21,923 nucleotides of DNA. It comes from a virus. The notes under the pieces are model-generated. The model did not search any database. It saw only the letters and a program-made list of their open reading frames with translations, and was not told where the DNA came from. The position numbers were made by a program, and so were the translations under genes. The stretch covers positions 1 to 21,923 of the IMG/VR virus record IMGVR_UViG_3300021131_000056; one strand, 5' to 3'. Shown in pieces: positions 2 to 13,839 of the stretch; the stretch's first letter is position 1, and each line of letters begins with the position of its first letter.

Positions 2-1363
2 GAAGCTCTCATTGTGAAGAAGCACGAAGCCTCTGAAGTGATCCATCCGCCATGGTCGCTGGGCTTCGTCTATGTGGCAGCCACCGACACCTTCCTACGC
101 CACCGCACCCGCCAAGAGTACAAACGCATTGCGCTCGACAGCGTTTTCTCGCGCAAACTGCTGCCCACCGCAGAGGAGTTGCAAGCGATGGACAAAGATG
201 TAAACGAGCACACGCTGGGCACGCCCAAGTTTCTGCCGTCGCTTTACCTGCTCAACCACCTCAAGTGCCAGACTGTTGACGACGTGACCTACAACCCGGC
301 AGCACCGGAGGACATCATCGTGCGCGAGGACGGCAAGCTCTACGTCAACATCTACCGTCGCAGTTATCGCGAAGCCGACCCCGCGCTCGCCAGCTACGTC
401 GAAGACCTGATGTGCGAGCAGCTTTCCAACCTCATCGCCGAGCCGCACTACCGCACGCACCTACTTGACTGGATGGCTTACAACGTGCAGTACCCCGGCA
501 GCAAGCTCCGCCATGCACTATTGCTCCAAGGTGGTGAAGGCTGCGGCAAGACTCTCATCTTTTACAGCCTCCGCGCTGCCCTCGGCAACGACAACACAAA
601 GATCGTCAACAGCGACACCATCAAAAAGGGGTGGAACGAGTGGGCCTTCGGCAGTCAAGTGGTGTGCATCGAGGAGTTGCGTGTCGCCGGGGTCAACCGT
701 CACGAGGTGATGAACACTCTAAAGGAGCCGATCACCAACGACTTCGTGCCGGTGAATGAGCGGGCCAAGAACACTCGCAACGTGCAGAACCGCACTAACT
801 ACCTCGCGTTCACCAACCATCACGACGCCATTGTGGTAGGGGAAGACAGCCGCCGCTGGTGGGTGGTGAAGTCCGCGCTCCAGCACAAAGAGCAAATCCG
901 CGCTATCGTGGACAAAGACCCTGAGTACTTCGCTCGGTTCGCTGAGTCACACGCCACCCACGCGGGGGGTTATAGGCATTTTTTCGAGAACCACACCATC
1001 TCGTCGAACTTCAAACCGTCCGGCCCGGCCCCCGCCACCACCTATTTGCAGGAGATGGTGTCCGACACCAGCGACGAAGTGACCGCCGCTATCACCGAAG
1101 CCTGGGAAGAGGGCAACAGCCCGCTCATCGGCAATGACGTGGTGGCCTTCACCACTCTGCGCAGTGCCCTTGACATCAACGGCCTGAAGGGACTCACCCA
1201 AGCCCGCCTGGCACACGCACTGCGCAACGCTGGGTTCCAGACATTCGGCAAGCACATGATCGGCACCGTGCGTCAGTCCGTGTGGGCACGCCCTGATCGC
1301 CTCAACGGCGAAAATCCTGTCGAATTGTTGTTGCAGAGGTCTAAAAATTCATCCATGCTTTGA
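2..1363 (+). CDS. SF3/P4-type primase-helicase (DUF5906-like), 5' end cut by window
   Basis: This is an ATP-driven helicase of phage replication, of the kind fused to or working with a primase. The frame is open to the window edge, so the true start is probably upstream; the first in-frame start is GTG at 14, giving 449 residues. Counting from that GTG, the Walker A motif GGEGCGKT lies at residues 173-180 and the Walker B-like VVCIEELR at about 216-223. These are followed by a sensor-type stretch with FTNHHDAIVVGEDSRRWWVV (about 266-287), typical of the DUF5906/D5-like SF3 helicases of phages and plasmids. An N-terminal primase domain is not seen and may lie outside the window. Two small genes follow closely. 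The family call rests on motifs and is fairly secure; the exact subfamily is less so. Confidence 0.85.
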   Translation, partial: EALIVKKHEASEVIHPPWSLGFVYVAATDTFLRHRTRQEYKRIALDSVFSRKLLPTAEELQAMDKDVNEHTLGTPKFLPSLYLLNHLKCQTVDDVTYNPAAPEDIIVREDGKLYVNIYRRSYREADPALASYVEDLMCEQLSNLIAEPHYRTHLLDWMAYNVQYPGSKLRHALLLQGGEGCGKTLIFYSLRAALGNDNTKIVNSDTIKKGWNEWAFGSQVVCIEELRVAGVNRHEVMNTLKEPITNDFVPVNERAKNTRNVQNRTNYLAFTNHHDAIVVGEDSRRWWVVKSALQHKEQIRAIVDKDPEYFARFAESHATHAGGYRHFFENHTISSNFKPSGPAPATTYLQEMVSDTSDEVTAAITEAWEEGNSPLIGNDVVAFTTLRSALDINGLKGLTQARLAHALRNAGFQTFGKHMIGTVRQSVWARPDRLNGENPVELLLQRSKNSSML

Positions 1364-1365
1364 AC

Positions 1366-1587
1366 ATGCCTCCCAACCCCGCACTCGTCCCTATCAAAGC
1401 CTTCGTCCGTCAGCACGGCGGAGCGTGGCCCGCTTGGGCTTTCAAACCTACGCGCCCGGCTCGCCGTACCACGCCTAACCGCGTGTTCGTGATCACCCCT
1501 GAACAACTTGCACCAGGACGCCGGTTTGTCGTGGTGGCGCAGGACTGGAATGCAGCGTTTGACCGTCTGGGGGTGCTGCTGTCGTGA
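1366..1587 (+). CDS. Small hypothetical phage protein (73 aa)
   Basis: This is an unrecognised small basic protein rich in proline, arginine and alanine. A TTG at 1360 overlaps the helicase stop, but ATG at 1366, three bases past that stop, is the more likely start. The protein has no cysteines and no membrane segment. The C-terminal half (RRFVVVAQDWNAAFDRLGVL) looks like a beta strand followed by a helix. It sits between the helicase and another tiny gene with a GTGA overlap, so it is probably co-transcribed with the replication genes. No function is assigned. Confidence 0.6.
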   Translation: MPPNPALVPIKAFVRQHGGAWPAWAFKPTRPARRTTPNRVFVITPEQLAPGRRFVVVAQDWNAAFDRLGVLLS

Positions 1588-1805
1588 CCGACGCTGACTT
1601 CATCGCCCTGCTCGAAGTACACGACTGGTACTTCGACCGCTCGGATGATGCCCGTGAATATTCACGCGGTCTTGCTTCCCAGAAAAAGCTGCTCTACCTC
1701 TGCCAGCAACAGCCCGAACTGCTTCGGCTCTACAACCACGCAAATAACTGCGTCATCCGAGGCATGCCTTTTGACTTTCCATCCTTCACCAGCCAACGCA
1801 GATGA
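1584..1805 (+). CDS. Small hypothetical phage protein (73 aa)
   Basis: This is an unrecognised protein that starts with GTG at 1584, overlapping the previous stop by four bases (GTGA), which suggests translational coupling. It is rich in aromatic and charged residues (for example VHDWYFDRSDDAREYSRG) and looks like a compact helical domain. It has two cysteines and no obvious metal site or membrane segment. It ends with an ATGA overlap into the next gene. Tight packing in the replication operon supports its being a real gene. Function unknown. Confidence 0.6.
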   Translation: MTDADFIALLEVHDWYFDRSDDAREYSRGLASQKKLLYLCQQQPELLRLYNHANNCVIRGMPFDFPSFTSQRR

Positions 1806-2275
1806 AGGATGAAACGCAACACACCCAAACCACAACACCCATGAAAGACCTCCTCTGGCCTATCTTTGAACCCCTCGTCAACAAAATCGTCGAAGCCATC
1901 GACCGCAACACCGCCGCCAAGGCTGGCGCTTGTGGCAGTCGCACGGAAGCGCAACCCGAGTCGCCCGCACCTGCTGAGAAGGCCGCCAAGCCTGCCAAAG
2001 CCCCCAAGGCTGCCCCGGCACCGGCTCCCGAGCCTGAACCGGCTCCCGAGCCTGAACCCGCTGCCGACCTTCAGGTCATCAGCGAAGACCGTCTAAAGGC
2101 CACCGTGAAGACGCTGACCAATGACGCCAAGCTGAAGCTCAAGGACTACTTCGTGAAGAAGTTCGGGCACAACACCATGGCCGAGATCGCCGAAGAGAAT
2201 CGTGCCGACATCCACGCCAAGTCCATCGCCCTCGGTGCCGTGGACACGGACCCCGACGACTTTGGCCCCTTTTAA
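1802..2275 (+). CDS. Hypothetical protein with Ala/Pro/Glu linker and acidic aromatic C-terminal tail (157 aa)
   Basis: No known family is recognised. Three parts are visible: a short helical N-terminus (MKDLLWPIFEPLVNKIVEAI), a long low-complexity Ala/Pro/Lys/Glu linker (about 53-88) with APEPEP repeats, and a folded C-terminal segment with predicted helices (LTNDAKLKLKDYFVKKFG). The last residues, DPDDFGPF, form an acidic tail ending in phenylalanine. Such tails are known from bacterial SSB (DDDIPF) and from T7 gp2.5, where they recruit replication proteins, so a replisome accessory role is possible but inferred. The start is ATG 1802 (ATGA overlap) or the internal ATG at 1841. An intrinsic terminator follows at 2300-2331, so this gene ends the first operon of the window. 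Confidence 0.65.
   Translation: MKDETQHTQTTTPMKDLLWPIFEPLVNKIVEAIDRNTAAKAGACGSRTEAQPESPAPAEKAAKPAKAPKAAPAPAPEPEPAPEPEPAADLQVISEDRLKATVKTLTNDAKLKLKDYFVKKFGHNTMAEIAEENRADIHAKSIALGAVDTDPDDFGPF
2021..2056 (+). repeat. Two tandem 18-bp copies encoding an APEPEP-type linker
   Basis: The unit CCGGCTCCCGAGCCTGAA occurs at 2021-2038 and again, identical, at 2039-2056, followed by a partial degenerate copy. It lies in frame in the Ala/Pro/Glu linker of the 157-aa protein. The repeat length is a multiple of three, so slippage would only change linker length. Confidence 0.9.
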
Positions 2276-2299
2276 TTTCCTCGCCAACTGAACCGAATC

Positions 2300-2331
2300 A
2301 GCCGTTGCTCCGATGAGGGGCAGCGGCTTTT
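2300..2331 (+). terminator. Rho-independent terminator after the first operon
   Basis: The arms 2300-2311 (AGCCGTTGCTCC) and 2317-2328 (GGGGCAGCGGCT) pair over 12 bp, with two G-U wobbles and a five-base loop (GATGA). The stem runs directly into TTTT at 2328-2331. It lies 25 bp after the stop of the 157-aa gene and 14 bp before the next ATG, as expected for a transcription terminator. The U-tract is short, so some read-through into the next genes is likely. Confidence 0.8.
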
Positions 2332-2344
2332 GGGGTACGCAATT

Positions 2345-2548
2345 ATGAAAACCCAGCCTATCGCTCCAGCTTTTGCCCCCAAAATTCAACGTGAATATCC
2401 CACTTTGTCAGGACTCACCAAACGCGAGTATTTTGCGGCTGCGGCCATGCAGGGCCTTTGTGCCAACGAATCCTGCGCAGGGTTTGACGAAATCGCTCTT
2501 GACGCCGTAAAGCACGCAGACGCACTCATCGCCGCCCTGAACAAATGA
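2345..2548 (+). CDS. Small conserved-type phage protein (67 aa), LTKREYFAAAAMQG motif
   Basis: The ATG at 2345 is preferred over an upstream TTG at 2330 because 2330 lies inside the terminator U-tract. The protein has a short disordered N-terminus, the stretch LTKREYFAAAAMQGLCAN and a C-terminal helix DAVKHADALIAALNK. This layout (TKREYFA-A-A-QGL followed by ADALI-AL) is common among small proteins next to phage replication genes, but no biochemical function is known to me. It overlaps the next start by ATGA (2545-2548), so it is probably coupled to the nuclease gene. The sequence GGGG about ten bases before the ATG may serve as a weak ribosome binding site. Confidence 0.7.
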   Translation: MKTQPIAPAFAPKIQREYPTLSGLTKREYFAAAAMQGLCANESCAGFDEIALDAVKHADALIAALNK

Positions 2549-3744
2549 CCTCCCCCGCTCCCATCCCCGAACACTCCCGCCTTTCCCCGTCCAAAGCCCA
2601 CACCTGGACCGAATGCACGGCGGCACTCGCTTTTGTCAAAGCCAACGAGCATCGCTTGCCACCCGACAAGTCCGGCCCGGCTGCCATGGAGGGCACCAAA
2701 GCCCACACGGTTGCCGAGTATCTATTGCTGGGCAAACCTGCACCAAGCTGGGCCAGCAAGGAGATGCTGCGCCACGGCAAAGCGTACGCCGAGTTCTGCC
2801 ACGAAGTGATGGGGCCAAAGCGTGACGTGATCCGCTGGGGTGCCGAGTATCGGGCACCGCTGTATTACCTGCCCAGTGAGCGCGGCACCGTGGACTTTCA
2901 CGCGTTGACCAAGACCGGCGTGCATCTGGTGGACTACAAATACGGCTACGACCCAGTGGACTCCGAGCGCAACCTGCAAATGGCGATCTACGCCCGCAGC
3001 TTGATCGAAGACATGTTCGATGGCTTCTGGTATGGCCCACTGCCCGACGAGTTCCCCGTGACCGCGACCATCTTTCAGCCGCGATTGGAGAAAGACCACA
3101 CCACCTGGACGACGACCTGGGGCGAACTCAAAAAGTTCACTGACGAAGCGATCACTCCGAAAGCGCAGACAATCCTGCGCGGGGATACCGGCGTGTTCAA
3201 ATGCGGGCCGAAGATTTGCAAGTGGTGCCGAGCAGATGTGATCTGTGAAGCCTACAACAACTCCCTGCTCGATGACTTCAGGGACGTGGTGGAAGCCGTG
3301 CCGGACAAAGACCTGCCCGCCGTCTCCGCCATGCCGGACGAACGCCTCGTCCAGTTGTTCAACCACCGCGACAAGCTCACCGACTTTATCAAGGCACTGG
3401 AGAAATTCGTCAACGGGCGCATGCTTTCCGGCAATAAGCTCCCAGGAGTCAAGCTGGTGCTCAGTCGCGGCGGTCATCGCAAGTGGTCTGACCCAGACGC
3501 AGCGGGCAAACTGCTGCTCAGTCTGAAGCTGCCCTACGACGACGTGTACCCACCATCAGATGTCATCACTCCCGCTGTGGCCGAGAAGCTCACCAAGGAT
3601 ATGAAGGGCGAGAAGATGATTGAGATGCAACGTCTCATTATCAAGCCGCCCGGCCAACCCATCGCGGTGCCCGAGAATGACCCACGCGCACCGTACGAGA
3701 ACGACCTGACCAGCGACTTCGCTGGGGTCGATTTGTCCGAATAA
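2545..3744 (+). CDS. Cas4-like PD-(D/E)XK Fe-S nuclease (DUF2800 family)
   Basis: This is a probable phage recombination/replication exonuclease. The nuclease core is visible: H54 in EGTKAHTVAEYL, D117 in GTVDFHA, D130 and K132 in LVDYKYG, and the RecB-type motif NLQMAIYA (143-150). A cysteine cluster C220, C225, C228 and C234 (CKWCRADVICEAY) resembles the Fe-S cluster of Cas4/AddB-type nucleases; C24 may be another ligand. The length (399 aa) is usual for DUF2800. It sits immediately before a DUF2815 ssDNA-binding protein, a gene pair that recurs upstream of PolA in many phages. The C-terminal tail carries SDFAGVDL (390-397), which is also present in the DUF2815 protein. Its biochemical activity is inferred from motifs. 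Confidence 0.88.
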   Translation: MTSPAPIPEHSRLSPSKAHTWTECTAALAFVKANEHRLPPDKSGPAAMEGTKAHTVAEYLLLGKPAPSWASKEMLRHGKAYAEFCHEVMGPKRDVIRWGAEYRAPLYYLPSERGTVDFHALTKTGVHLVDYKYGYDPVDSERNLQMAIYARSLIEDMFDGFWYGPLPDEFPVTATIFQPRLEKDHTTWTTTWGELKKFTDEAITPKAQTILRGDTGVFKCGPKICKWCRADVICEAYNNSLLDDFRDVVEAVPDKDLPAVSAMPDERLVQLFNHRDKLTDFIKALEKFVNGRMLSGNKLPGVKLVLSRGGHRKWSDPDAAGKLLLSLKLPYDDVYPPSDVITPAVAEKLTKDMKGEKMIEMQRLIIKPPGQPIAVPENDPRAPYENDLTSDFAGVDLSE

Positions 3745-3747
3745 AAT

Positions 3748-3791
3748 TTGACTCCCCGCCAATAGTGTGGAGATTCAACCTACTGCATAAC
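3748..3791 (+). promoter_or_regulatory. Possible weak promoter region upstream of the DUF2815 gene
   Basis: The gap 3745-3831 begins with TTGACT (3748-3753), three bases after the nuclease stop. A good -10 at the normal distance is not present; AGATTC at 3771 or CATAAC at 3786 are poor candidates. The 8-mer AATAGTGT (3761-3768) recurs at 4891-4898 before the polymerase gene, in both cases downstream of TTGACT. This suggests a shared control element rather than a clear sigma-70 promoter. Confidence 0.25.
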
Positions 3792-3831
3792 GCAGCAAAC
3801 TAGAAACCGAGAACCCGCAAAACCGCATAGC

Positions 3832-4551
3832 ATGAGCACCCCAGCACCCGCAAGAGATCCCAACGTCGGCACTTTCAGTGGCCGTTTCAGCTTCCCAGTA
3901 ATCAACGAGAAGCAGCGCCTAGCCGCCGAGCAGAAGCGCATGAAGAACCCCAAACCTGGCGAGGAGGACAAGTCCACCGGTTTCGGCTGGAGCGTCATCA
4001 TCGACAAGCAGACCGGTGCCAAGGACATCGAGAAGGCTTGGGAAATCATCAAGCGTGTCGCCGCTGAAAAAGCCGAGTGGACGGGCAAGATCGTCATGGT
4101 CAAAGGTCGCAAGGAACCACTGGTCAACCAGTCCAACCCCAAAGCCGAGAAGGTGGTGCTCATGGGCATTGCTCTGCACGAGGGCGAAGACAAAGCCGAC
4201 AAAGCTGGCTACGGTGATGATGTGATGTACATCAGTGCCAACCGTTCGGTGTCCAAAGGTCCACCTGCGGTCAAGGACAAAGCCTTTCAAGACATTCGCC
4301 CTGAAGAGTCGCACTACCCCTACGCTGGCTGCTATGTGAAGGTCAGCGTGCGCTTCTGGGCACAGGACAACGACTTCGGCAAGCGCATCAACGCCGAGGC
4401 CCGCGTGGTCATCTTTGACAAACACGGCGAACCGTTTGGCGAAGCACCTGTCGATGCTGAGTCCGACTTTGCCGGTGTTGACCTCGACGCCGACGATGAG
4501 ACTGCCCCAGCCGGGAAGTCCAAGGCTGCCGTGGACATCGACGACATGTAA
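3832..4551 (+). CDS. DUF2815-family ssDNA-binding protein
   Basis: This is a probable phage single-stranded DNA-binding or annealing protein acting at the fork and in recombination with the preceding Cas4-like nuclease. The 239-aa protein has the DUF2815 layout: an N-terminal GTFSGRFSFPVINEKQR, a central lysine-rich part (GWSVIIDKQTGAKDIEKAWEII), VMYISANRS and a conserved YPYAGCYVKVSVRFWAQDN strand segment. The acidic C-terminal tail (from about 205) is probably disordered and contains SDFAGVDL (211-218), identical to the end of the nuclease, before ending VDIDDM. Acidic tails in SSBs usually recruit partners. The start ATG 3832 has no Shine-Dalgarno sequence in front. The family call is by pattern and fairly sure. 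Confidence 0.82.
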   Translation: MSTPAPARDPNVGTFSGRFSFPVINEKQRLAAEQKRMKNPKPGEEDKSTGFGWSVIIDKQTGAKDIEKAWEIIKRVAAEKAEWTGKIVMVKGRKEPLVNQSNPKAEKVVLMGIALHEGEDKADKAGYGDDVMYISANRSVSKGPPAVKDKAFQDIRPEESHYPYAGCYVKVSVRFWAQDNDFGKRINAEARVVIFDKHGEPFGEAPVDAESDFAGVDLDADDETAPAGKSKAAVDIDDM

Positions 4552-4571
4552 CCACTTTGGCCTCTCCCTGC

Positions 4572-4678
4572 CTCCCCGCGCACAATAATAACCCTCGCCG
4601 GTGATTGAGTGACGGAAACGCGGAGGTGGCGGGGAGAAGGTCATCCAAATCACCGGAAGGCGCTGGTGCGAGTCCAGC
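4572..4678 (+). ncRNA. Candidate structured RNA element with pseudoknot, upstream of DNA polymerase
   Basis: In the gene-free gap 4552-4945, CTCCCCGC (4572-4579) is fully complementary to GCGGGGAG (4629-4636), and CCGGTGATT (4598-4606) is fully complementary to AATCACCGG (4648-4656). The segments interleave in the order a-b-a'-b', which is the topology of an H-type pseudoknot or of two alternative stems. A five-bp hairpin GCTGG/CCAGC with a seven-base loop follows at 4662-4678. A two-tetrad G-rich motif (GGAGGTGGCGGGG, 4622-4634) lies inside. It resembles no RNA class I can name. It could be an RNA element controlling the polymerase, a small RNA, or part of a replication origin. Pairing is seen directly; function is inference. 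Confidence 0.35.
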
Positions 4679-4684
4679 CGAGTT

Positions 4685-4869
4685 TGTGCATTCTTGTAGT
4701 GTAAAGGAGCATCCTGAATCGTCCGGCCTGAGGAGTAAAAATGCACACTTCTTTCAAACGCAGGTCTTTCCAGAGATAAAGGCGTTTCATGCGCCAAACG
4801 AATGGTTCATAACCGTGGCCTGCTCCATTTTCTAAACACCTTCGGGAAATCCAGGGATCGCTGTCCTGG
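4685..4869. other. Hairpin-rich non-coding stretch before the polymerase gene
   Basis: No convincing gene is seen here. Inverted repeats are TGTGCATT (4685-4692) with AATGCACA (4740-4747); AAACGC (4756-4761) with GCGTTT (4782-4787), enclosing CTTT/AAAG (4766-4769, 4778-4781); and a hairpin CCAGGG/TCCTGG (4851-4856, 4864-4869; one G-U) with a seven-base loop. Base composition is visibly richer in A+T than the flanking genes. Together with the pseudoknot just upstream, this makes the gap a candidate regulatory RNA or replication origin. Confidence 0.4.
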
Positions 4870-4892
4870 TTGGTCAATACGAGGTTGACTAA
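4870..4892. promoter_or_regulatory. Operator-like inverted repeat in front of DNA polymerase
   Basis: TTGGTCAA (4870-4877) and TTGACTAA (4885-4892) form an inverted repeat with seven of eight positions matching and a seven-base spacer, the size of a dimeric repressor site. TAAAAT at 4898-4903 is a fair -10 element but has no good -35 at 16-18 bp. The polymerase ATG follows at 4946. A regulator site is plausible; no candidate repressor is visible in the window. Confidence 0.35.
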
Positions 4893-4945
4893 TAGTGTAA
4901 AATCAAAAGTCAGAATAAGCACACCCGACCATTTTCTGCAACGCC

Positions 4946-7900
4946 ATGCCGTTTTCCATAGACTACGAAACCAAGAGCAGGGCAGACCTGGGCAACGTCG
5001 GCACTTTTCGATACGCCAAAGACCAGAGCACCGATGTCCTGTGCGTCTCCATCCGCAAGGACAAAGGCCCGGTGCTGGTGTGGATTCCTCCGCAGTACGA
5101 AACCCACGGCGACGTGTTTGGGGGTGTCGCCAGCGACCCCGGCGCGAAAGAACTACTCACCGAAGCCATGGAGTCCGACGAGCCGCTCAACGCTTTCAAC
5201 GTGCTGTTCGAGATCGCCATCACCGAGCACGTTCTGTGCCGCCTATACGGTTTCCCGCTACCCAACCGCAGACGCTGGCGCTGCACCATGGTCCTTGTCC
5301 GACGTGCCAATATCCCGGCATCTCTTGCCAAAGCGGCGGAGGCTCTCGGTATGCCACAGCAGAAGGACTCTGCGGGTAGCCGCCTGATCAAGAAGTTCTG
5401 CATCCCGCAGGAGGAAACCAACGAGTTTATCCACCCGCGCCAAGACTCGACCTCGTTCAAATCCTTCGCCGAGTACTGCCGCCAAGACACGTTGGTAGAA
5501 AGCGACATGCTGGAGCCGCTCAAACCGTTTGAGATGCGTGGTTGGGTGCTCGACATCTTCTTGGAGAGCATTGAGATGAACTGCCGGGGTATGCCCCTTA
5601 ACCTCGACGCGCTACGCAAGGCAGACGCCATGATTGAAAAGGAAACCGGCCCTGCCTTTGCCCAGTTTCGCGAACTTACCGGACTCAACCCCACGCAGAG
5701 CGCCAAGGTGAAAGCCTGGATCAACGCCAAAGGCCTGACCCTGGACAACTTGCAGGGCGATACCTTGGAAGCTATCGTCGATACCCTGGTGCAGTCGGGC
5801 CAAGAAAAGGCTCGGCAGGCGATTGAACTGATGCGGAAGATAGGTTTTGCCTCGGTGAAGAAGATCCGCACCATGCTGGATTGCGTAGGCCCAGATGACA
5901 ACTACCTCCGTGGATCTCTGGAATTTCACGGTGCCTCGACGATGCGCTGGAGCGGCAAGCTGCATCAGCCGCAGAACTTCAAGTCCCCCGAGGAATGGGC
6001 CGAGTCACTCACTGGCAAAATGTACGCCGACCTGTGCCATGGGGAGAGCAAGGAAGAACTCGAATGGTGGTATGGTCGCCCGATCTTTTCCATCCTCGCC
6101 AACTGCATCCGTCACTTCATTCAGGACAAACAAGGTCCAATGCTATCCGCCGACTACACCGCTATTGAGGCGATGATCTTGGCCTGGCTGGCGGGGGAGG
6201 AGTGGCGACTTGAGGTGTTTCGCACCCACAAGAAGATTTACGAGATGTCCGCCAGCCAGATGTTCGGCATCCCAATGCAGGAGTTTGAGGATTACAAGGC
6301 CAAGCACGGTAAGCATCACCCGATGCGCAAGACTGGGAAGGTGGCCGAGCTTGCGTGCATCGCGGAAGGCCAGCTTGTCACCACCGACCAAGGGCTGGTG
6401 CCGATTGAGCAGGTCACGTTGGAGATGAAGGTGTGGGATGGGATTTCATTTGTCAGTCACCAAGGTGTAGTGTATCAGGGTATCAGGGAAGTCCTGACTT
6501 ATGAAAACCTCACCGCTACGGAAGATCACATCGTATTCACAGAAGCAGGGCAAATGCAGTTCATTGACGCAGCCCGTCGGGGTAAACACTTGCACCAAAC
6601 CCGACCAAGTGGGCACGGTGTTTGGATGGGTAAAAGTGGTGTCCCCGTTGAGAGTGTACGTGAAACCCAATTGGCAAGAGTGCCAAGTGCAAACCGAGTG
6701 CCAAGGGTGCGGGAGGGTGTCTTGGCAAAACTGGTCGAGCCTGCAACGCGGCCTTTCCAAAGGCTGCCAGCGTTGTTCCCAGCCGAGGCGTACTCCCGCA
6801 TGGCTGCACAGCAGAGTGTCGGCAATGGAACAAAGATGCAACAACCCGAGGACTCCCAATTTCTACAACTACGGTGGAAGAGGAATCGAGTTTCGTTTCA
6901 GCACCGTGCTGGAAGGCAGCATATGGGTTCAAGAAAATCTGGGGTTACACCGAGGTCGAGAATTGGATCGCATCAACAACGATGGGCATTACGAGCCGGG
7001 AAACCTGCGATATGCCACTCGCTCCATGCAGAATCTCAACGCCAGACGCACAAAGATGACTGCGGAATGGTACGAGTGGTGCCGGACCAAAAGCCCCTAC
7101 TCCTTCCATACTTCGGTTCACCGGCTATCGTCAATGCAGAGCACAGAGGAGGTGATCGAGTCCGCGAAGGAAGCAGTGGTCAACAAGCGCAAGAACTGGC
7201 GTGTGATCCGAGGCCGACTCATCGAACTCGGGTATATGACATCATGAACTGTGGCCCGCGTAACCGCTTCACGGTGTCCGGCGTATTGGTTCACAATTGT
7301 GGGTACCAAGGAGCAGAGGGCGCACTGGTCAAGTTTGGCGCTCTCGACATGGGGCTGACACAGGACGAGTTGACACCTATCGTTGAAAAGTGGCGAGCAG
7401 CCAACCCCATGATCGCCGACTTCTGGCATGCCTGCGAACGTGCAGCCATCCGAGCAGTGAAGATGCCGGGCCAAATCTTCGAGGTGGGCAAGCTGTCCTT
7501 CGTCTGCGCCCGTGCCGCTGGTGCTCACTACTTGTTCATGCGCCTACCGTCTGGCCGGAAGCTGGCCTACCGTGATCCCAAGATTTCCGAGGTGCAGGCC
7601 AAAAGCAAAAAGACTGGCAAGGAGTACACTAAGACCTCGCTGTCCTACTATGGGCAGATCCCCGGCCCCACTGGTGCCAAGTCCACCAAATGGGGGCATG
7701 TCAGCCTATACGGAGGGAAGGCCACGGAAAATGCCTGCCAGGCAATCGCCTTCGACATCATGGCAAATGGCACCCTCAAAGCCGCCGCCAAAGGGTACCG
7801 CATTTACTCGTTGATCCACGATGAAGCCTTGGCGGCATTCGACGGACCCCACCAAAGCCTAGAGGAGTTTCAACGATGCCTTGAAGACGTGCCAGCATGG

Positions 7901-7957
7901 TGTGACGGGCTACCAGTGAGCACCAGTGGAGCAGTTGTCCCCTATTACACCAAATAG
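4946..7957 (+). CDS. Family A DNA polymerase with 3'-5' exonuclease, interrupted by an intein
   Basis: This is the replicative polymerase of the phage. The N-terminal DnaQ-type proofreading domain shows exo I DYETKS (D6, E8), exo II FNVLFE (N85, E89) and exo III YCRQD (Y177, D181). The polymerase domain shows motif A DYTAIEA (D403, E408), motif B RKTGKVAELA-CGYQG split by the intein after A470, and motif C HDE (958-960). The translation product is 1003 aa; removing intein residues 471-784 gives a 689-aa polymerase, a normal size for phage PolA-type enzymes. The start ATG 4946 follows the structured gap and has no Shine-Dalgarno sequence. The DUF2800-DUF2815-PolA order is a common phage replication cassette. 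Activity requires protein splicing, because the intein sits in the nucleotide-binding O-helix. Confidence 0.93.
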   Translation: MPFSIDYETKSRADLGNVGTFRYAKDQSTDVLCVSIRKDKGPVLVWIPPQYETHGDVFGGVASDPGAKELLTEAMESDEPLNAFNVLFEIAITEHVLCRLYGFPLPNRRRWRCTMVLVRRANIPASLAKAAEALGMPQQKDSAGSRLIKKFCIPQEETNEFIHPRQDSTSFKSFAEYCRQDTLVESDMLEPLKPFEMRGWVLDIFLESIEMNCRGMPLNLDALRKADAMIEKETGPAFAQFRELTGLNPTQSAKVKAWINAKGLTLDNLQGDTLEAIVDTLVQSGQEKARQAIELMRKIGFASVKKIRTMLDCVGPDDNYLRGSLEFHGASTMRWSGKLHQPQNFKSPEEWAESLTGKMYADLCHGESKEELEWWYGRPIFSILANCIRHFIQDKQGPMLSADYTAIEAMILAWLAGEEWRLEVFRTHKKIYEMSASQMFGIPMQEFEDYKAKHGKHHPMRKTGKVAELACIAEGQLVTTDQGLVPIEQVTLEMKVWDGISFVSHQGVVYQGIREVLTYENLTATEDHIVFTEAGQMQFIDAARRGKHLHQTRPSGHGVWMGKSGVPVESVRETQLARVPSANRVPRVREGVLAKLVEPATRPFQRLPALFPAEAYSRMAAQQSVGNGTKMQQPEDSQFLQLRWKRNRVSFQHRAGRQHMGSRKSGVTPRSRIGSHQQRWALRAGKPAICHSLHAESQRQTHKDDCGMVRVVPDQKPLLLPYFGSPAIVNAEHRGGDRVREGSSGQQAQELACDPRPTHRTRVYDIMNCGPRNRFTVSGVLVHNCGYQGAEGALVKFGALDMGLTQDELTPIVEKWRAANPMIADFWHACERAAIRAVKMPGQIFEVGKLSFVCARAAGAHYLFMRLPSGRKLAYRDPKISEVQAKSKKTGKEYTKTSLSYYGQIPGPTGAKSTKWGHVSLYGGKATENACQAIAFDIMANGTLKAAAKGYRIYSLIHDEALAAFDGPHQSLEEFQRCLEDVPAWCDGLPVSTSGAVVPYYTK
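6356..7297 (+). mobile_element. Intein in polymerase motif B (314 aa)
   Basis: Hint-type splicing features are present in the polymerase frame. These are the first residue C471 followed by IAEGQLVTTDQGLVPIEQV (block A), block B TEDH (T525-H528), block F VYDIMNCGPRNRFTVSG, and the end VLVHN with C785 as the +1 residue of the C-extein. Both junctions fall within the conserved motif B, a typical intein insertion point. Between roughly 6600 and 7228 the polymerase-frame translation has no recognisable domain, because this stretch instead encodes an HNH endonuclease in another frame. The frame is nevertheless open throughout. Exact excision would leave LA-CGYQG, an ordinary PolA sequence, which supports the boundaries strongly. 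Confidence 0.92.
6501..7247 (+). CDS. HNH homing endonuclease nested out of frame inside the intein
   Basis: This open frame is shifted relative to the polymerase/intein frame and lies wholly inside the intein coding region. It has the classic layout of phage HNH endonucleases: VGTVFGWVKVV (37-47), a zinc-binding pair C67-C70 and C89-C92 (CQGCG ... GCQRC), MEQRCNNPRTPNFYNYGGRGI (109-129) and the HNH core LDRINNDGHYEPGNLR (155-170) with YATRSMQNLNARR. The ATG at 6501 is an upper bound for the start; residues before about 35 overlap intein block B and look non-native, so GTG 6609 or GTG 6618 may be the true start. The stop TGA 7245-7247 lies just inside the splicing block F region. It probably makes the break that spreads the intein. 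The start codon and its expression are unproven. Confidence 0.8.
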   Translation: MKTSPLRKITSYSQKQGKCSSLTQPVGVNTCTKPDQVGTVFGWVKVVSPLRVYVKPNWQECQVQTECQGCGRVSWQNWSSLQRGLSKGCQRCSQPRRTPAWLHSRVSAMEQRCNNPRTPNFYNYGGRGIEFRFSTVLEGSIWVQENLGLHRGRELDRINNDGHYEPGNLRYATRSMQNLNARRTKMTAEWYEWCRTKSPYSFHTSVHRLSSMQSTEEVIESAKEAVVNKRKNWRVIRGRLIELGYMTS

Positions 7958-7960
7958 TCT

Positions 7961-8488
7961 ATGACCACCCAGCACATCATGATCGACCTTGAAACCCTCG
8001 GCACTCGACCTGGTAGCATTGTGCTGACCATTGGAGCGGTGAAGTTCAGCAAGCTGGGAGTCGGCAAAAAGTTTTATCGCGCCATCTGCGAAGCTGACTC
8101 ATCCGCTAACGGTCTTTCCAGCGACCCTTCCACCGTTGAATGGTGGAGCAAGCAGTCTCCAGAAGCTCGCGAAGCTGCATTCTTAGGCACAGAAAGTCTG
8201 CGTGAAGCACTCTTGGCTTTTACCGATTTTTGCGGTGCCGACGTTATCCGCGTATGGGGCAACGGCTCTGACTTCGACAACGTGCTGCTTGAAGAAGCGT
8301 ATCGTGCAGCAGAGCTTGGAGTGCCTTGGAAGTTTACCGGCAATCGCTGCTACCGCACGGTGAAGAACTTGTTTCCCAAAGTGACCGTTCCTTCTGTCGG
8401 CACCGCGCACAATGCTTTGGATGATGCCATCTACCAAGCCAATCACCTGATCGCCATATCAAAAAGGCGCTGCTTCGACCTGTCATGA
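7961..8488 (+). CDS. DEDDh 3'-5' exonuclease (Rv2179c/RNase T-like)
   Basis: This is a 175-aa exonuclease of the DnaQ superfamily. The first acidic pair is in MIDLETLGT (D9, E11), the second motif in VWGNGSDFDNVLL (D104/D106) and the third in HNALDDA (H150, D154). The histidine makes it a DEDDh type, and the overall pattern resembles the Rv2179c-like family common in phages. It starts three bases after the polymerase stop, so it is co-transcribed with it. The polymerase already has a proofreading domain, so this enzyme may process RNA or DNA ends rather than proofread. It ends in an ATGA overlap with the next small frame. Confidence 0.85.
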   Translation: MTTQHIMIDLETLGTRPGSIVLTIGAVKFSKLGVGKKFYRAICEADSSANGLSSDPSTVEWWSKQSPEAREAAFLGTESLREALLAFTDFCGADVIRVWGNGSDFDNVLLEEAYRAAELGVPWKFTGNRCYRTVKNLFPKVTVPSVGTAHNALDDAIYQANHLIAISKRRCFDLS

Positions 8489-8709
8489 GCGCCTTCACCT
8501 GCCCCTCCTGTCAAAAACAAATCACCGTTGAACCCTTAGACGCACCCCTCCGACTATGCCGCGACTGCCGAAACCAAAAACACGCAAGCCTCTCGAAAAG
8601 GAAATCGAGAAGAAAATCTGCGACTACGCCAAGCAGCTTGGATGCTACGTCCGCAAGTTCACCAGCCCCAACCAGCGGTCAGTGCCCGACCGACTCATCA
8701 TCGCCTTAG
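8485..8709 (+). CDS. Possible zinc-ribbon peptide overlapping the VRR-NUC gene (74 aa)
   Basis: ATG 8485 overlaps the exonuclease stop (ATGA). The first 31 residues contain two CxxC pairs, CPSC and CRDC, spaced like a small zinc ribbon. After about residue 31 the sequence becomes Ser/Lys/Arg/Pro-rich and coincides with the first half of the VRR-NUC gene in another frame, so it may have no selected structure. The 71 bp from 8485 to 8555 would otherwise be a gap, unusual in this packed operon. It could be a true overlapping gene or the remnant of a zinc ribbon once fused to the nuclease. Moderate to low confidence. Confidence 0.45.
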   Translation: MSAFTCPSCQKQITVEPLDAPLRLCRDCRNQKHASLSKRKSRRKSATTPSSLDATSASSPAPTSGQCPTDSSSP

Positions 8710-8906
8710 GTGGCGCGGTGGGATTCCTCGAAATTAAGCGTGGCGGCGAAAGTCCCACGAAAGCGCAGGAGCACGAGATGAACTTGCTCAAGAAGCAAGG
8801 CTGTGACGTGTGGTGGTGTGACAACGTGGATGTCGGCAAAGCCTTCGTGGACGCGCTGGTCAAAGCAGGAGAAAAGAACAAAGAAAATCAGGACTTCTGG
8901 GGATGA
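8556..8906 (+). CDS. VRR-NUC domain nuclease
   Basis: This is a 116-aa stand-alone VRR-NUC protein, a PD-(D/E)XK nuclease family frequent in phage replication cassettes and probably acting on branched or Holliday-type DNA. Visible features are an N-terminal helix EKEIEKKICDYAKQLGC (E16 region), the catalytic SVPDR (D45), FLEIKRG (E59, K61) and a conserved glutamine in TKAQ (Q71), followed by WWCDNVDVG. The length is typical of the minimal family. The C-terminus NKENQDFWG is an acidic/polar tail ending in FWG, shared with the next two proteins. The gene overlaps the methyltransferase start by ATGA (8903-8906). Confidence 0.88.
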   Translation: MPRLPKPKTRKPLEKEIEKKICDYAKQLGCYVRKFTSPNQRSVPDRLIIALGGAVGFLEIKRGGESPTKAQEHEMNLLKKQGCDVWWCDNVDVGKAFVDALVKAGEKNKENQDFWG

Positions 8907-9634
8907 GCATTCAACTTATGCTTGGCGAATGCCTTGAGCGCATGCAGGAAATCGAAACCGGCAGCGTGGACATGGTGATGGCTGATCTGCCTTATGGAAC
9001 GACTGCCTGCAAATGGGACACAGTGATTCCTTTTGTCCCACTCTGGGAGCAATACCGTCGCGTGTGCAAGAAAAATGCAGCCATCGTGCTCACGGCAAGC
9101 CAGCCGTTTACGAGCACTCTTGGAGCATCAAATGCCGATGCGCTAAAATACTCATGGGTGTGGGCGAAGTCCTCGGCAACTGGGCATCTCAACGCCAAAC
9201 GGATGCCAATGAAAATCCACGAAGATATACTGGTGTTTTCTGATGCCCCACACAACTATTTTCCGCAAGGGCTAAAGCCTCATGGGAAAATCACCCGGCG
9301 CGGGAGCAACGGAGACAACTTCGGCAAAAGCGGGGTCGAAAATTTCCAAGAGTGGACAAACTATCCGCGTTCTATTCTTGAGTTCCCTTCTGAGGGAAGA
9401 CCGATCCACCCGACTCAAAAACCGGTCGCCTTGATGGAGTACTTGATCCGCACTTATACCAACGAAGGCGAGACGGTTCTCGACAACACCATGGGTAGTG
9501 GTACAACCGGCGTGGGTTGCATCAACACCAGGCGCAGCTTCATCGGCATCGAGCGTGATCCCGCCTACTTTAAGATTGCGCAGGCCCGGTGCGGCGTCGA
9601 GCCTGGGTTCAATGAAAAGGAGTTCTGGGGATGA
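8903..9634 (+). CDS. DNA methyltransferase, beta class (N6-adenine or N4-cytosine)
   Basis: This is a SAM-dependent DNA methyltransferase modifying adenine N6 or cytosine N4. Motif IV DLPYGTT (D28-Y31) comes first and the SAM-binding motif I, DNTMGSGTTGVG (194-205), is near the C-terminus followed by FIGIERDPAYF; this order defines the beta class. The segment HPTQKPVALMEYLIR is the usual motif X region. No restriction endonuclease partner is adjacent, so it is an orphan phage enzyme that may protect phage DNA from host restriction. It lies in the replication operon with ATGA overlaps on both sides. The protein ends NEKEFWG, sharing the FWG tail. Target site unknown. Confidence 0.92.
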   Translation: MSIQLMLGECLERMQEIETGSVDMVMADLPYGTTACKWDTVIPFVPLWEQYRRVCKKNAAIVLTASQPFTSTLGASNADALKYSWVWAKSSATGHLNAKRMPMKIHEDILVFSDAPHNYFPQGLKPHGKITRRGSNGDNFGKSGVENFQEWTNYPRSILEFPSEGRPIHPTQKPVALMEYLIRTYTNEGETVLDNTMGSGTTGVGCINTRRSFIGIERDPAYFKIAQARCGVEPGFNEKEFWG

Positions 9635-11073
9635 ACTTCACTCCCGCCCCGCCGCAAAAGCTGTTGATCGACAAGATGTGCAGCCAAGACATTGTTTATG
9701 GACTTCTGGGATGTGGCCTTGGCAAGACCGCCGCCGTGCTCGCTGCCTTCGTTCAAATGAAAGCCGAACGCAGGGTGAAGGCCATGCTGGTGATCGCACC
9801 CATGCGAGTATGCACCTTGACATGGCCCATGGAGGTGCAGGCATGGTCACAATTCAAACACTTGTGTGTGGCTAATCTTAGAACTCCGCTGGGGCGGCAG
9901 GCGTTTATTGCTGGGAGAGGAGATGTGTTTCTCGTGAACTACGAGTCCATCCCGCTGCTTGTAAAATTGGTGGAGAAGCGTGGAGGCACTGTCCCCTACC
10001 AGATGGTGGTGTACGATGAAATTACAAAGGCTAAATCTTCACAGTCTAAGCGTATCAATATGCTACGCCGTGAAGTACCACAGGTCAAGTATCGAACGGG
10101 CCTAACTGGTACTCCGACGCCAAATTCCTTGATGGACTTGTTCGCTCAAGTACGGCTTCTAGACGATGGCCAACGGCTGGGTCGCAGCTTTGACCATTTC
10201 AAGAAGACTTACTTTAGCCCGGTAGATTACCACCAGTATGACTGGCAACCAGTCGCAGGCGCTGCCGAGCGTATCGACTCCCGTATTGCTGACATCACCC
10301 TCACCCTGCGCACATCGGACTGGCTCAAGGATTTGCCGGATTACAACGTTAACGACATCGAGATAAAACTGCCACCCCACGTCATGGAACAATACGAGGA
10401 GTTCAAACGTGAGTTGATCTTGGACCTTCGCCGGGAAGTACAGATTACAGCAGCCAATGCGGCGGTGCTAGTACGCAAGCTGCTCCAGTTTACTTCTGGC
10501 TGCATCTACGATGGGGAGAAGAAAGCACATGATGTGCATGACTTCAAAACGGCTGCTCTTGCCAAGCTGGCAAAGGAGACCAAAGAGCCGTTGCTAGTAC
10601 TGTGTGATTTCAAACACGAGCAAGAGCGCATCAGGCGCAAGTTTCCACAGGCCCGGTTCTTCGCCGATGCGAAAACTCCGTCCTTACAAGTGCAACTCAT
10701 TACTCAGTGGAACCGGCGCGAGATACCCATGCTGGTCGGACACCCTCTTTCGATGGGACATGGTCTGAACCTTCAGGCAGGATCACAAACCATGGTGTGG
10801 ATGACCCTCTCATTTTCGAGAGAGCAGTATGAACAAACGATTGCCCGATTGTATAGAAGGGGTCAAAGGAATGTCGTTACCGTCCACCGTCTCATGGTGC
10901 CCGGCACAGTGGATGATGTAGTGGCCGAGGTGCTGGAGGAAAAGCGCAACACCGAGCAACGTCTGCTCACTGCTCTGATGCTCTTGGAAGGGGATCGCAA
11001 AGGCAGGCCCGCGCTCAAGATCAAACCCTCTGAACCTGAAGGAGAGTTCGACGAAGAAGCCTTCTGGGGTTGA
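9631..11073 (+). CDS. SNF2-like SF2 DNA helicase/translocase
   Basis: This is an ATP-dependent DNA translocase of the small phage SNF2 type. The motifs appear in order: Walker A GCGLGKT (27-33), motif II VVYDEITKA (D129, E130), motif III LTGTPTPN (158-165), then in the second RecA lobe LVGHPLSMGHGLNLQAGS (about 366-383) and motif VI QTIARLYRRGQ (about 402-412), followed by the typical HRLMVPGTVDDVVAEVL. At 480 aa it has no extra DNA-binding domain, as is usual for phage versions found next to VRR-NUC. It probably remodels forks or recombination intermediates together with the nuclease. It ends EFDEEAFWG, the third consecutive FWG tail. Codon choice is somewhat more A/T-rich than in the structural genes. 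Confidence 0.92.
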   Translation: MNFTPAPPQKLLIDKMCSQDIVYGLLGCGLGKTAAVLAAFVQMKAERRVKAMLVIAPMRVCTLTWPMEVQAWSQFKHLCVANLRTPLGRQAFIAGRGDVFLVNYESIPLLVKLVEKRGGTVPYQMVVYDEITKAKSSQSKRINMLRREVPQVKYRTGLTGTPTPNSLMDLFAQVRLLDDGQRLGRSFDHFKKTYFSPVDYHQYDWQPVAGAAERIDSRIADITLTLRTSDWLKDLPDYNVNDIEIKLPPHVMEQYEEFKRELILDLRREVQITAANAAVLVRKLLQFTSGCIYDGEKKAHDVHDFKTAALAKLAKETKEPLLVLCDFKHEQERIRRKFPQARFFADAKTPSLQVQLITQWNRREIPMLVGHPLSMGHGLNLQAGSQTMVWMTLSFSREQYEQTIARLYRRGQRNVVTVHRLMVPGTVDDVVAEVLEEKRNTEQRLLTALMLLEGDRKGRPALKIKPSEPEGEFDEEAFWG

Positions 11074-11097
11074 CGAAAACAGATAGCAGGTTAAAAT
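11070..11097 (+). promoter_or_regulatory. Sigma-70-like promoter for the DUF3310-terminase operon
   Basis: TTGACG (11070-11075) and TAAAAT (11092-11097) are separated by 16 bp, close to the sigma-70 consensus. The -35 overlaps the stop codon of the helicase gene. The next ATG (11108) is only 10 bases past the -10, so the transcript would be nearly leaderless. This fits the absence of a Shine-Dalgarno sequence. Confidence 0.6.
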
Positions 11098-11107
11098 TCA
11101 CCACACA

Positions 11108-11359
11108 ATGACTCCTGAAACAGCACCGAATCCCCAGCAACGTTTGTCCGCCCTCGACACTCAAGTCGGCGGCACTCACTACAAAGACATGGCGATCCAG
11201 CCGATTGAGTTCTGCACCAAAAACCGGCTCGGCTTTGCCGAGGGATTGGCGATCAAATACATCTGCCGCCACGAGCAGAAGAACGGCGCACAGGACTTGG
11301 ACAAAGCCATCCACTGTTTGCAACTCCTGCGAGAACTGCGCTACGGTAATCCTTCCTGA
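11108..11359 (+). CDS. DUF3310 protein (83 aa)
   Basis: This is a small phage protein with the DUF3310 signature GGTHYKDMAIQPIEF (21-35), the helix FAEGLAIKYICRHEQKNG (43-60) and DLDKAIHCLQLLREL (63-77). The family is common in phages and sometimes annotated as nucleotide-kinase-like (SaV), but its activity is not established. It is first in the operon after the promoter at 11070 and overlaps the terminase start by one base (TGATG). Confidence 0.85.
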   Translation: MTPETAPNPQQRLSALDTQVGGTHYKDMAIQPIEFCTKNRLGFAEGLAIKYICRHEQKNGAQDLDKAIHCLQLLRELRYGNPS

Positions 11360-13362
11360 TGCCTCCCCCTGCCAAACCCGCCGCCGCCAAGCGCCCTGCC
11401 GCACAACCCGTGCAGCAGCCCAACGAGCGCACTCACATTGCACGGTACGGGCGGTGGTGGAAGCGGCTGCCGGGAGTGCCCAAGACCAGTGCAGGCTATG
11501 ACCTGTTGCAGGAGGTTGCCATCGAGAAGTACATCTGTGGCAACTACGACGCCTTGGTGGCGCTGCCTGGCAGTCAGTTGAACCCGTGGACCTGGCACTT
11601 CCGCAGGTTCATCTCACTGATGCTGGAGCGGCCCGAAACAAATCCGCGCTACCGCTTCGAGTGGAACCCCTACGCCATGCGGATGCTGGAGGAGGCGTAC
11701 AAAAACAACTTCCTCGCGGTTGCCGGTCATGCCAGTTGCTCCAAGTCGGAGTTCTTCGCCCTCTATGCGATTGGTCGGTTCCTCATCGGTGCTCGCTTTC
11801 CTGACTGCCCGGTGGCCTCGCCGGAATACGTCAAGGTCTTCATTACCTCCACCTCGTTGGATGAATCCCGTGGTCGTATCTGGGGCGTGGTCGAAGGATA
11901 CTGGGCAGAGATTTGTCGGTTCTTCGGTGGTGAGCAGTACATGCAGGCCAAGCTCATCTCTTCCACCGGGAAGATCGTGCGAGTCAATCCCGACGGCAGG
12001 CAGAACCAGCTTTCAGGAATCACTCTGGTAGCTGGGGGTAAGGGGCAAGACAAGGACGCCTCCACCAAGATCGGTTTCAAGAACCGCTGCGTAATCTTCA
12101 TCGCAGATGAACTGCCACTGTTGACGCACGCACTCTACAACACCGCCATCACCAACTTGCAGTCCAACGAGTACCTGCAATTCATCGGCATCGGCAATCC
12201 CACCTCGCCGTTCGACCCGCTCGGCGTGTTCATGGAACCGGATGAAGGCTGGGCCTCGGTTGATGAAACCTTTAACGGGTGGAAGACCAAGCGCGGCTAC
12301 TGCATCCGCTTCGACGGGGAGAAGTCTCCCAACGTGCTTGCTGGTCGAGAAATCTGGAAAGGCATTCTCAGCTTGCGCACCGTCACGGATCTGCGCGAAA
12401 GCCTCGGCCCCAAGTCACCCGAGTATTACCGCATGGTGCGCGGCTACCTCTCCCCCGATGGTGACGCCAACGCCATCTACACCGAGGTCGAAATCATCTC
12501 CAGCGGCAGTCAGGGCAAAGTTACCACCTGGCTCACGCCACCCGAGTTGATCGCGTTCATCGACCCGGCCTTCAGCCATGGCGGGGACGAAGCGCCCATG
12601 TGTGTCGCCCGCCTCGGCGACTACTTCTCACCCATCCACCAGCGCAACGTCAAAGGCATCGAACGAGTGGAGACAGTCAACCTTATGGCGAAGGTGGACG
12701 CCAGCAACAAGGAGATAGATCGCAACCAGCAGTTAGTGAACCTGTTCCACGAAGAGTGTGTTGCCCGAGGGATCAAGGTTGAAAACCGGGGTGTGGACTC
12801 CACGGGCGCAGGTGATCCGTTCTCCACCCTCATGGCGATCACCATGGGACGAGGCTTCCAGATGGTGAGCTTTGCCGGTGCGCCGTCAGACAAGACCGTC
12901 GGCACCACCAACTCCCGCAGCGGCAAAGACCGTTTCGCCAACCGCGTCTCCGAGTTGTGGTACGTCGGCAAAGACTTTATGAAGGCCGGGCAGATACGAG
13001 GACTGGACCCTGAAACCTGCATCCAAATGTGCGCCCGCATGTACAAGCTGGTGGACCGGGAGAAAGTTGAGGTCGAGTCCAAGAAGATCATGAAGCAGCG
13101 GACCAACGGGCGAAGCCCCGACCGTGCCGACGCCTTCTTTGGCTGCATCGAGATTGCCCGCCGCCGCTATGGTCTGTCCTCGCTGGTACGGGCTGGCACA
13201 CGCGCCCCGCTGCCGTCTGCACCGGAAAGCCGCACAGCCTACCGCCAGGCCGCCCTGGAGTCCACGCTGGCCGGGCGTTCAGGCAAACCTCGGTTCTCCG
13301 ATCTGAACGTGCCCACGTTGAGCGGGGTAAACGGATTTGCAGATTCGCAACGATTCGGTTGA
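11359..13362 (+). CDS. terL: Terminase large subunit (packaging ATPase and nuclease)
   Basis: This is the motor that cuts and packages phage DNA into proheads. The ATPase domain carries a Walker A position VAGHASCSKSEF (G123-S130) and Walker B VIFIADELPLL (D250, E251), followed by IGIGNPTSPFDPLG, a coupling-motif-like segment. The RNase H-like nuclease domain shows IAFIDPAFSHGGDEA (D402), NRGVDSTGAGDPF (D480) and SPDRADAFFG (D588/D591). At 667 aa it is on the long side for TerL, with a disordered Ala/Pro N-terminus. The Walker A is unusual: serine replaces the glycine before the catalytic lysine (SKS instead of GKS). No small terminase subunit is recognisable nearby, and a portal gene does not follow directly. 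Confidence 0.9.
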   Translation: MPPPAKPAAAKRPAAQPVQQPNERTHIARYGRWWKRLPGVPKTSAGYDLLQEVAIEKYICGNYDALVALPGSQLNPWTWHFRRFISLMLERPETNPRYRFEWNPYAMRMLEEAYKNNFLAVAGHASCSKSEFFALYAIGRFLIGARFPDCPVASPEYVKVFITSTSLDESRGRIWGVVEGYWAEICRFFGGEQYMQAKLISSTGKIVRVNPDGRQNQLSGITLVAGGKGQDKDASTKIGFKNRCVIFIADELPLLTHALYNTAITNLQSNEYLQFIGIGNPTSPFDPLGVFMEPDEGWASVDETFNGWKTKRGYCIRFDGEKSPNVLAGREIWKGILSLRTVTDLRESLGPKSPEYYRMVRGYLSPDGDANAIYTEVEIISSGSQGKVTTWLTPPELIAFIDPAFSHGGDEAPMCVARLGDYFSPIHQRNVKGIERVETVNLMAKVDASNKEIDRNQQLVNLFHEECVARGIKVENRGVDSTGAGDPFSTLMAITMGRGFQMVSFAGAPSDKTVGTTNSRSGKDRFANRVSELWYVGKDFMKAGQIRGLDPETCIQMCARMYKLVDREKVEVESKKIMKQRTNGRSPDRADAFFGCIEIARRRYGLSSLVRAGTRAPLPSAPESRTAYRQAALESTLAGRSGKPRFSDLNVPTLSGVNGFADSQRFG

Positions 13363-13377
13363 CTTTCGCCCTATCAT
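13359..13377 (+). promoter_or_regulatory. Possible promoter elements before the 147-aa gene
   Basis: TTGACT (13359-13364) overlaps the terminase stop codon and TATCAT (13372-13377) lies 18 bp before the ATG at 13396, a suitable -10 position. The two are only 7 bp apart, so they cannot act together as a sigma-70 promoter, and no -35 is seen at 17 bp. Weak evidence. Confidence 0.2.
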
Positions 13378-13395
13378 CCACGACACACCCTCACC

Positions 13396-13839
13396 ATGGA
13401 AGAATTTGAACACTCCGAAGCCTTGAAACGTGCGCTGCGCATGGCTGACGGCGACACGGTGTTTCAGCAAGGAGTCGAGGACGAGTTTTGCACCGGTCTT
13501 TACGATCACGTTGTTGACCTCGGCGGCTGCGAAAAGAGGACGCCAGCAATCCTGATGGATTATCTAAATGCTGTGCTCGGCAACGTGCGCAAAACCTTTC
13601 TCATGGTGGTGCCACTCTCGGCCCACCCGACCGAGCCTTACTTGTTCCCCGAGGACAACACTGATCCCGACCGGCTTATCAAGTGGCCACTGGAAATGTG
13701 GCTCGACTTCATCCGCGTGCGGGTGAACGCGGGAGACAACTTCATTATCACCGGCTCATGGCATTACCCCGGCCTACGCCCGGCATCCTCGCAGGTGCCG
13801 AAGTCCACGGGGTTCATCCAGTTTACCAGAATCTCATGA
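13396..13839 (+). CDS. Hypothetical phage protein (147 aa)
   Basis: This protein is not recognised. It starts at ATG 13396 after a 33-bp gap, without a Shine-Dalgarno sequence. It is acidic at the N-terminus and has an alpha/beta look: a helix with MDYLNAVLGNVRKTFLM, a strand MVVPLSAHP and a helix with LEMWLDFIRVRVNAGDNFII. The end, GFIQFTRIS, is strand-like. There is no signal peptide or membrane segment. It begins the operon that leads through two small genes into the glycosyltransferases and overlaps the next start by ATGA. Function unknown. Confidence 0.65.
   Translation: MEEFEHSEALKRALRMADGDTVFQQGVEDEFCTGLYDHVVDLGGCEKRTPAILMDYLNAVLGNVRKTFLMVVPLSAHPTEPYLFPEDNTDPDRLIKWPLEMWLDFIRVRVNAGDNFIITGSWHYPGLRPASSQVPKSTGFIQFTRIS

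Follow-up and report, generated by a model that had tools for sequence, protein, structure and literature searches.

A phage PolA intein that shares its DNA with an HNH endonuclease gene read in another frame, and its relatives in phages and prophages

Inteins that carry an endonuclease are usually described as a single polypeptide with a nested endonuclease domain. Dassa et al. 2009 reportedly described split inteins with an intervening endonuclease gene, the so-called fractured genes. Like the locus described here, these have a free-standing and apparently separately expressed endonuclease gene at the endonuclease position of a mini-intein; the host gene of a fractured gene is in two parts and trans-spliced, whereas here the host frame is whole and is read through the endonuclease gene. 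The orthodox HNH intein is exemplified by the dCTP deaminase intein of cyanophage CL131, which has HintN and HNH_3 parts in frame and for which splicing was demonstrated (PMC6293099). It resembles the present case in the location of the HNH between the Hint halves and in its residence in a phage DNA-metabolism gene, but its HNH is part of the splicing polypeptide, whereas the HNH considered here would be a separate protein from another frame. The nearest published case is that of ShiLan and the Pacc40 insertion: the ShiLan domain of mycobacteriophage methylases is an out-of-frame HNH, explicitly without a splicing domain, which is thought to remain in the methylase and for which the authors detected no ribosome-binding site (Arsenault, Gosselin, Gogarten 2025, PMC11855218). 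An out-of-frame HNH in a phage gene, an open host frame and zinc fingers flanking the HNH are common to both, but unlike ShiLan the locus described here has a complete Hint domain, and its family has a conserved internal start with a ribosome-binding site as well as HNH-less mini-inteins at the same site. No description of an out-of-frame endonuclease inside a splicing intein was found in the open-licence literature, which is not proof of absence, and the double-coded arrangement is apparently new for inteins.

The DNA analysed, hereafter the window, is the whole stretch of 21,923 nucleotides of the IMG/VR virus record IMGVR_UViG_3300021131_000056. The features relevant to the overlap, all on the plus strand, are as follows.

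4946..7957, + strand: gene of PolA, the phage family-A DNA polymerase; a single ORF of 1003 aa, open through the intein, with relatives annotated as DNA polymerase
6356..7297, + strand: intein in the polymerase frame, from C471 to VHN784 and followed by Cys, delimited by alignment with relatives and mini-inteins and by a Hint fold match
6356..6601, + strand: HintN part, containing block A (CIAEG...) and block B (TEDH); 31 inteins have invariant columns here, and AlphaFold gives a pLDDT of 86-96 for residues 1-80
6485..6491, + strand: Shine-Dalgarno-like AGGGAAG within the Hint coding sequence, 9 nt before the HNH ATG, identified from duplex scores and synonymous enrichment in the family; weak in this copy, whereas most relatives have a strong one
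6495..6497, + strand: stop codon of the HNH frame just 5' of the HNH ATG; the frame opens at 6498
6501..7247, + strand: gene of a zinc-finger HNH endonuclease of 248 aa, +1 relative to PolA, identified as an ORF and by family alignment, PHROGs and its predicted fold
6608..7210, + strand: double-read stretch, predicted to form a disordered loop that links HintN and HintC when read in the polymerase frame and a folded nuclease when read in the HNH frame
6699..6776, + strand: Cys4 zinc finger of the HNH protein (C67, C70, C89, C92), invariant in 32/32 aligned proteins
6960..7040, + strand: HNH core (E154, D156, R157, Y164, N168, N180), invariant in 32/32 aligned proteins
7211..7297, + strand: HintC part with blocks F and G (RVYDIMNCGPRNRFTVSGVLVHN); invariant columns, high AlphaFold confidence for residues 289-314

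The PolA protein matches PF00476 (DNA_pol_A) with an E value of 2e-7, slightly short of the Pfam cut-off owing to the interruption of the polymerase domain by the intein. The intein occupies the gap between PolA residues A470 and C785 in the motif B region of the polymerase, between KVAELA and CGYQG, and has all the splicing residues, namely C1, H313-N314 and the +1 Cys. Across 31 aligned inteins C1 and the terminal HN are invariant, as are T55 and H58 of block B and the columns of blocks F and G, all in the host frame, and the +1 Cys was found in the listed type A loci (see below) with the exception of one masked locus. When the intein was modelled with AlphaFold in the polymerase frame, the Hint parts were confident (most blocks 85-96), and the top Foldseek matches of the Hint model were the gp41-1, Npu DnaE and Ssp DnaB inteins with a probability of 1.0, while residues 85-284, which correspond to the HNH overlap read in the polymerase frame, had a pLDDT of about 36 and are predicted to be a disordered loop. 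Identification as an intein is by motif and fold, since the Pfam and NCBIfam profiles do not call it (TIGR01445 matches weakly, in 4 of 32). From its intact splicing residues, its fold and its patchy occurrence, the insert is most reasonably considered a cis-splicing intein. The surrounding genes (2-18193) code for a DUF5906/VapE-like protein, a DUF2800 protein, an Enc34-type single-stranded (ss) DNA-binding protein, PolA, an exonuclease, a DNA methylase, an SNF2 helicase and a 783-aa glycosyltransferase-like protein.

The HNH gene lies entirely inside the intein, so that 747 bp are read in two frames. A reading made from the sequence alone (hereafter the sequence-only reading) had placed the splicing blocks in the polymerase frame and a complete zinc-finger HNH in another, which agrees with the ORFs 4946-7957 and 6501-7247; its estimate of about 640 bp for the overlap was too small, given that the family-conserved start is the ATG at 6501, and its preferred HNH start near 6609 is probably wrong for the same reason. 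The HNH family assignment rests decisively on PHROGs, in which the window protein matches the HNH endonucleases phrog_3377, phrog_374 and phrog_8790 with E values of 1.5e-18 to 2.6e-17, and not on Pfam, which fails to detect an HNH domain in the window protein and finds HNH_3 only weakly in 4 of 33 relatives. The HNH frame folds well in AlphaFold (mean pLDDT 84). A sequence search of PDB with this protein gave no match, and Foldseek found weak fold matches among solved structures, none of them an HNH; among predicted viral HNH proteins the model found a match at E ~1e-8. Where the textbook HNH motif has its first catalytic His, the window's family and the type C relatives both have Asp-Arg. 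The window copy is full length with all the invariants of the family, and this conservation suggests that the protein is an active nuclease.

Searches with the HNH and the polymerase led to Gardnerella phage AB1 and Streptococcus Javan phages, whose polymerase ORF spans an unannotated +1 HNH. A search of viral contigs with the window HNH as a single protein gave no matches, and an alignment-based profile search found 39 viral and 32 bacterial or prophage contigs; the relatives come from Bacillota, Gardnerella, a Spirochaetales genome and a Synergistales genome. Those with the window's arrangement are referred to as type A (typical intein length 309 aa): in all the contigs found, the Hint and adjoining polymerase blocks have a frame in common, relative to which the HNH is +1. 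No polymerase-frame stop was found in any translated type A intein, with the one in L035 not being whole since its N part is missing. More than 70 type A loci with a GC content of 38-59% have the same +1 offset, which is kept at about 40% protein identity, and therefore an indel or assembly error is no explanation for it. Aligning the related PolA intein genes thus bore out the expectation that the offset is shared and that the polymerase frames are open across the endonuclease; neither compensating indels nor relatives with an in-frame endonuclease and stops in the second frame were found. At the level of sequence, the double-coded arrangement is confirmed as a general one which recurs in dozens of unrelated phages and prophages. 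In L035 (3322-3472 and from 3967 on) the N part of the polymerase and that of the Hint domain are absent upstream of an otherwise intact HNH overlap, and a DUF2800 RNA motif is located immediately upstream.

The sequence-only reading had cautioned that open frames can arise by chance, and this was answered by shuffling each HNH gene's own synonymous codons, which keeps codon usage but not all neighbour effects. For the window, the shuffles have on average 7.0 polymerase-frame stops and only 0.03% of them are fully open (P=0.0003), compared to 0 stops observed. The same was done for 34 lineages with less than 85% nucleotide identity, a threshold which reduces but does not remove shared descent; 3.6-14.6 polymerase-frame stops per gene are expected from the shuffles and 0 were observed in all 34, with the summed log10 P being below -115 (each P floored at 1/3000). 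The mechanism of stop avoidance is visible codon by codon, since a T-ending codon before AA, AG or GA would create a polymerase-frame stop: none of the 1,386 HNH codons in these contexts ends in T (0/309 2-fold, 0/896 4-fold and 0/181 Ile codons), as against 60% of 2-fold, 23% of 4-fold and 39% of Ile codons in other contexts. This is the same open frame viewed at single codons and not a second independent test. A polA exon, used as a control, has T endings in 53% of 2-fold and 19% of 4-fold codons and no comparable avoidance, and in free-standing HNH homologues each of the two other forward frames is interrupted by 4 to 32 stops. Differences between relatives amount to 0.59 at position 3 of HNH codons vs 0.32 and 0.24 at the other two (pairwise values, uncorrected for ancestry), and therefore the HNH frame is truly coding. 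Where the HNH frame has an early stop (L003, L065), the polymerase frame is still open, as would be expected if selection for the polymerase holds the second frame open. Taken as a comparison of sequences, these data show that the requirement for polymerase keeps the second frame stop-free by way of synonymous choices in the HNH gene.

Most lineages have a stop in the HNH frame right ahead of the ATG, with the frame opening 130-142 nt into the intein, and in the window the stop at 6495..6497 limits any route to the HNH by frameshifting upstream. The ATG overlaps an invariant Hint tyrosine (TAT-GA) whose codon is TAT in 30 of 34 lineages, with 15.7 expected (P=1.6e-9). The ribosome-binding site of the window is weak (-5.5 kcal/mol vs -8 to -14 in many relatives, where the Shine-Dalgarno sequence ahead of the HNH ATG extends up to AAGGAGGT). 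Across the family the Glu codon of this site is GAG in 22 of 28 cases, with 12.2 expected (P=7e-5), a signal which is modest by itself because the HNH-less mini-inteins also have GAG at this position. The energy test is likewise modest alone (Stouffer z -3.05) because GAGGT is favoured by the Hint residues as such, and it is weaker than the start-codon test. The usual ATG is lost in L011, L023, L027, L040 and L078, which have an upstream ATG with a good site instead. The conserved start and ribosome-binding site support the view that the HNH is translated separately by internal initiation, as the sequence-only reading had suggested in assigning the endonuclease a start of its own.

The occurrence of the element is patchy. 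A mini-intein without the HNH is present at the window's insertion site in L010, while L008 and L049 retain the 5' part of the HNH alone, with 141 codons deleted, and L046 and L047 have lost 46 codons, the frame being kept in both cases. Intein-free polymerase loci exist as well. One of them, L124, shares 93.4% identity with L003 across the site, and homing is expected to leave such a pattern of presence and absence.

Two further groups of PolA inteins have the same architecture at other sites. Type B inteins are found in Jerseyvirus and Dhillonvirus, including Salmonella phages, at a site 4 residues upstream of the window's, and type C inteins in Shewanella SFCi1, Caulobacter RW and APSE-1 between GGK and CEN..QA or near variants of this site. 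The endonuclease does not lie in the Hint frame as it does in an orthodox intein, being +1 to it in types A and C and +2 in type B. A single PolA ORF in L216 (1126-4959) contains two inteins, one at the window's site, where the HNH is +2, and one of type C, where it is +1, so that all three forward frames of this gene are used. Existing annotations of Salmonella phages Ent1 and SS3e and of APSE-1 show pieces and not the arrangement: the Ent1 record (HE775250, type B) reads 'intein encoding splicing domains' and does not mention an endonuclease, while that of APSE-1 (P45/P46 in NC_000935, type C) includes the overlapping HNH gene P46 and makes no connection to an intein.

In an HNH tree produced by a quick method, with free-standing genes sampled using a type C query, type C is located among free-standing genes and apart from types A and B. 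Considered along with the frames, which are not the same in all groups, this placement points to several invasions that took place independently (two or more according to the tree), and we conclude that free-standing HNH genes probably entered mini-inteins out of frame repeatedly. The earlier proposal that a free-standing HNH gene invaded a mini-intein is supported: HNH-less mini-inteins do occur at the site and the tree places type C among free-standing genes, the only group for which it shows such a source, while for type A, to which the window belongs, a free-standing source is presumed.

Several loci differ from this architecture. An APSE-like type C copy in L219 (3604-4749) has a decayed HNH, with the zinc-finger part missing and a stop, and recognisable intein ends. 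A second, upstream intein site in PolA is split in L067 (852-5298), where PolN-IntN and IntC-PolC are separate ORFs; between the halves are an apparent antisense DUF3800-like gene, named from its sequence, and a match to the DUF3800-I RNA (2942-3052, minus strand), and this fractured gene also has an overlapping intein of type A in its C half. At that upstream site L063 has an ordinary in-frame intein (2482-3360), LAGLIDADG-like by eye, which shares one ORF with an overlapping HNH intein, and L078 has a mini-intein (2991-3330) apparently frameshifted between its N and C halves.

Very probably, then, the locus is an overlapping-gene intein in which an HNH gene invaded a PolA mini-intein out of frame and two products are made from one transcript. 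The invading gene would have come from a phage family which also exists free-standing. Ribosomes starting at the polA start would make the precursor and read the HNH DNA as a disordered loop, some 200 residues long, that joins HintN to HintC. The Hint domain, judging by its intact splicing residues, would excise the intein together with this loop. Other ribosomes would enter at the internal ribosome-binding site and ATG in the Hint sequence, as the selected start signals suggest, and make the HNH alone, which presumably cuts intein-free polA, so that the whole element may spread by homing.

The same picture could arise in one genome if an in-frame HNH intein of the usual kind had acquired a pair of compensating frameshifts, either recently or as a sequencing or assembly artefact, and the record of Salmonella phage SS3e, annotated as three genes, does contain a frameshift. 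We give this reading practically no weight: for the family it is refuted by the exact stop avoidance across 34 lineages and by an offset that is identical in all type A loci, which were assembled or isolated independently of one another (e.g. MW387018 and MK448719) and are related at about 40% protein identity. No more credible is removal of the insert at the RNA level, as an HNH-encoding intron of group I or II. Such ORFs are typical of phage introns, but Rfam gave no gathering-level intron match in the window or in seven related loci, and the insert lacks stops in the host frame, carries all the intein splicing residues and has a Hint fold.

Programmed ribosomal frameshifting, which would yield a PolA-HintN-HNH fusion with no internal initiation, is improbable: it is common in phages and the offset is uniform within each group, but the stop just ahead of the HNH ATG in most lineages leaves only a short stretch in which to slip, there is selection on the HNH start codon and on its ribosome-binding site, and the offset varies between the groups. 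It is equally hard to believe that the HNH frame is a decaying, unexpressed relic and that only the splicing frame matters today, even though broken or deleted copies occur (L003, L065, L008/L049, L046/L047 and the APSE-like L219), given that the 32 aligned proteins do not vary at their zinc-finger and core residues, substitutions fall mostly at HNH third positions, the start codon is maintained and the window copy is intact. Sequencing error, an RNA intron and a relic alone were thus rejected as readings on the basis of the conserved offset, the lack of an Rfam intron and the HNH invariants, respectively.

The overlapping-gene intein differs from the usual single-polypeptide form in that a pair of overlapping genes appears to supply its two activities, in no fewer than three groups of PolA inteins and with two offsets. 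Well-sequenced phages such as the Salmonella Jerseyviruses are included, and their annotators noticed a single frame. It provides a natural, long and conserved overlap that encodes a structured protein in one frame and is simply kept open in the other, making the origin and upkeep of dual coding measurable, and a concrete route by which free-standing homing endonucleases may enter mini-inteins. Tentatively, and with the balance leaning somewhat against it, out-of-frame entanglement might be a repeatedly evolved and perhaps adaptive intein life-style, where sharing the nucleotides of an essential gene would shield the endonuclease from frameshifts and most deletions and separate initiation would set its dose independently of splicing. 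Inteins recorded in databases as lacking an endonuclease may conceal one in another frame.
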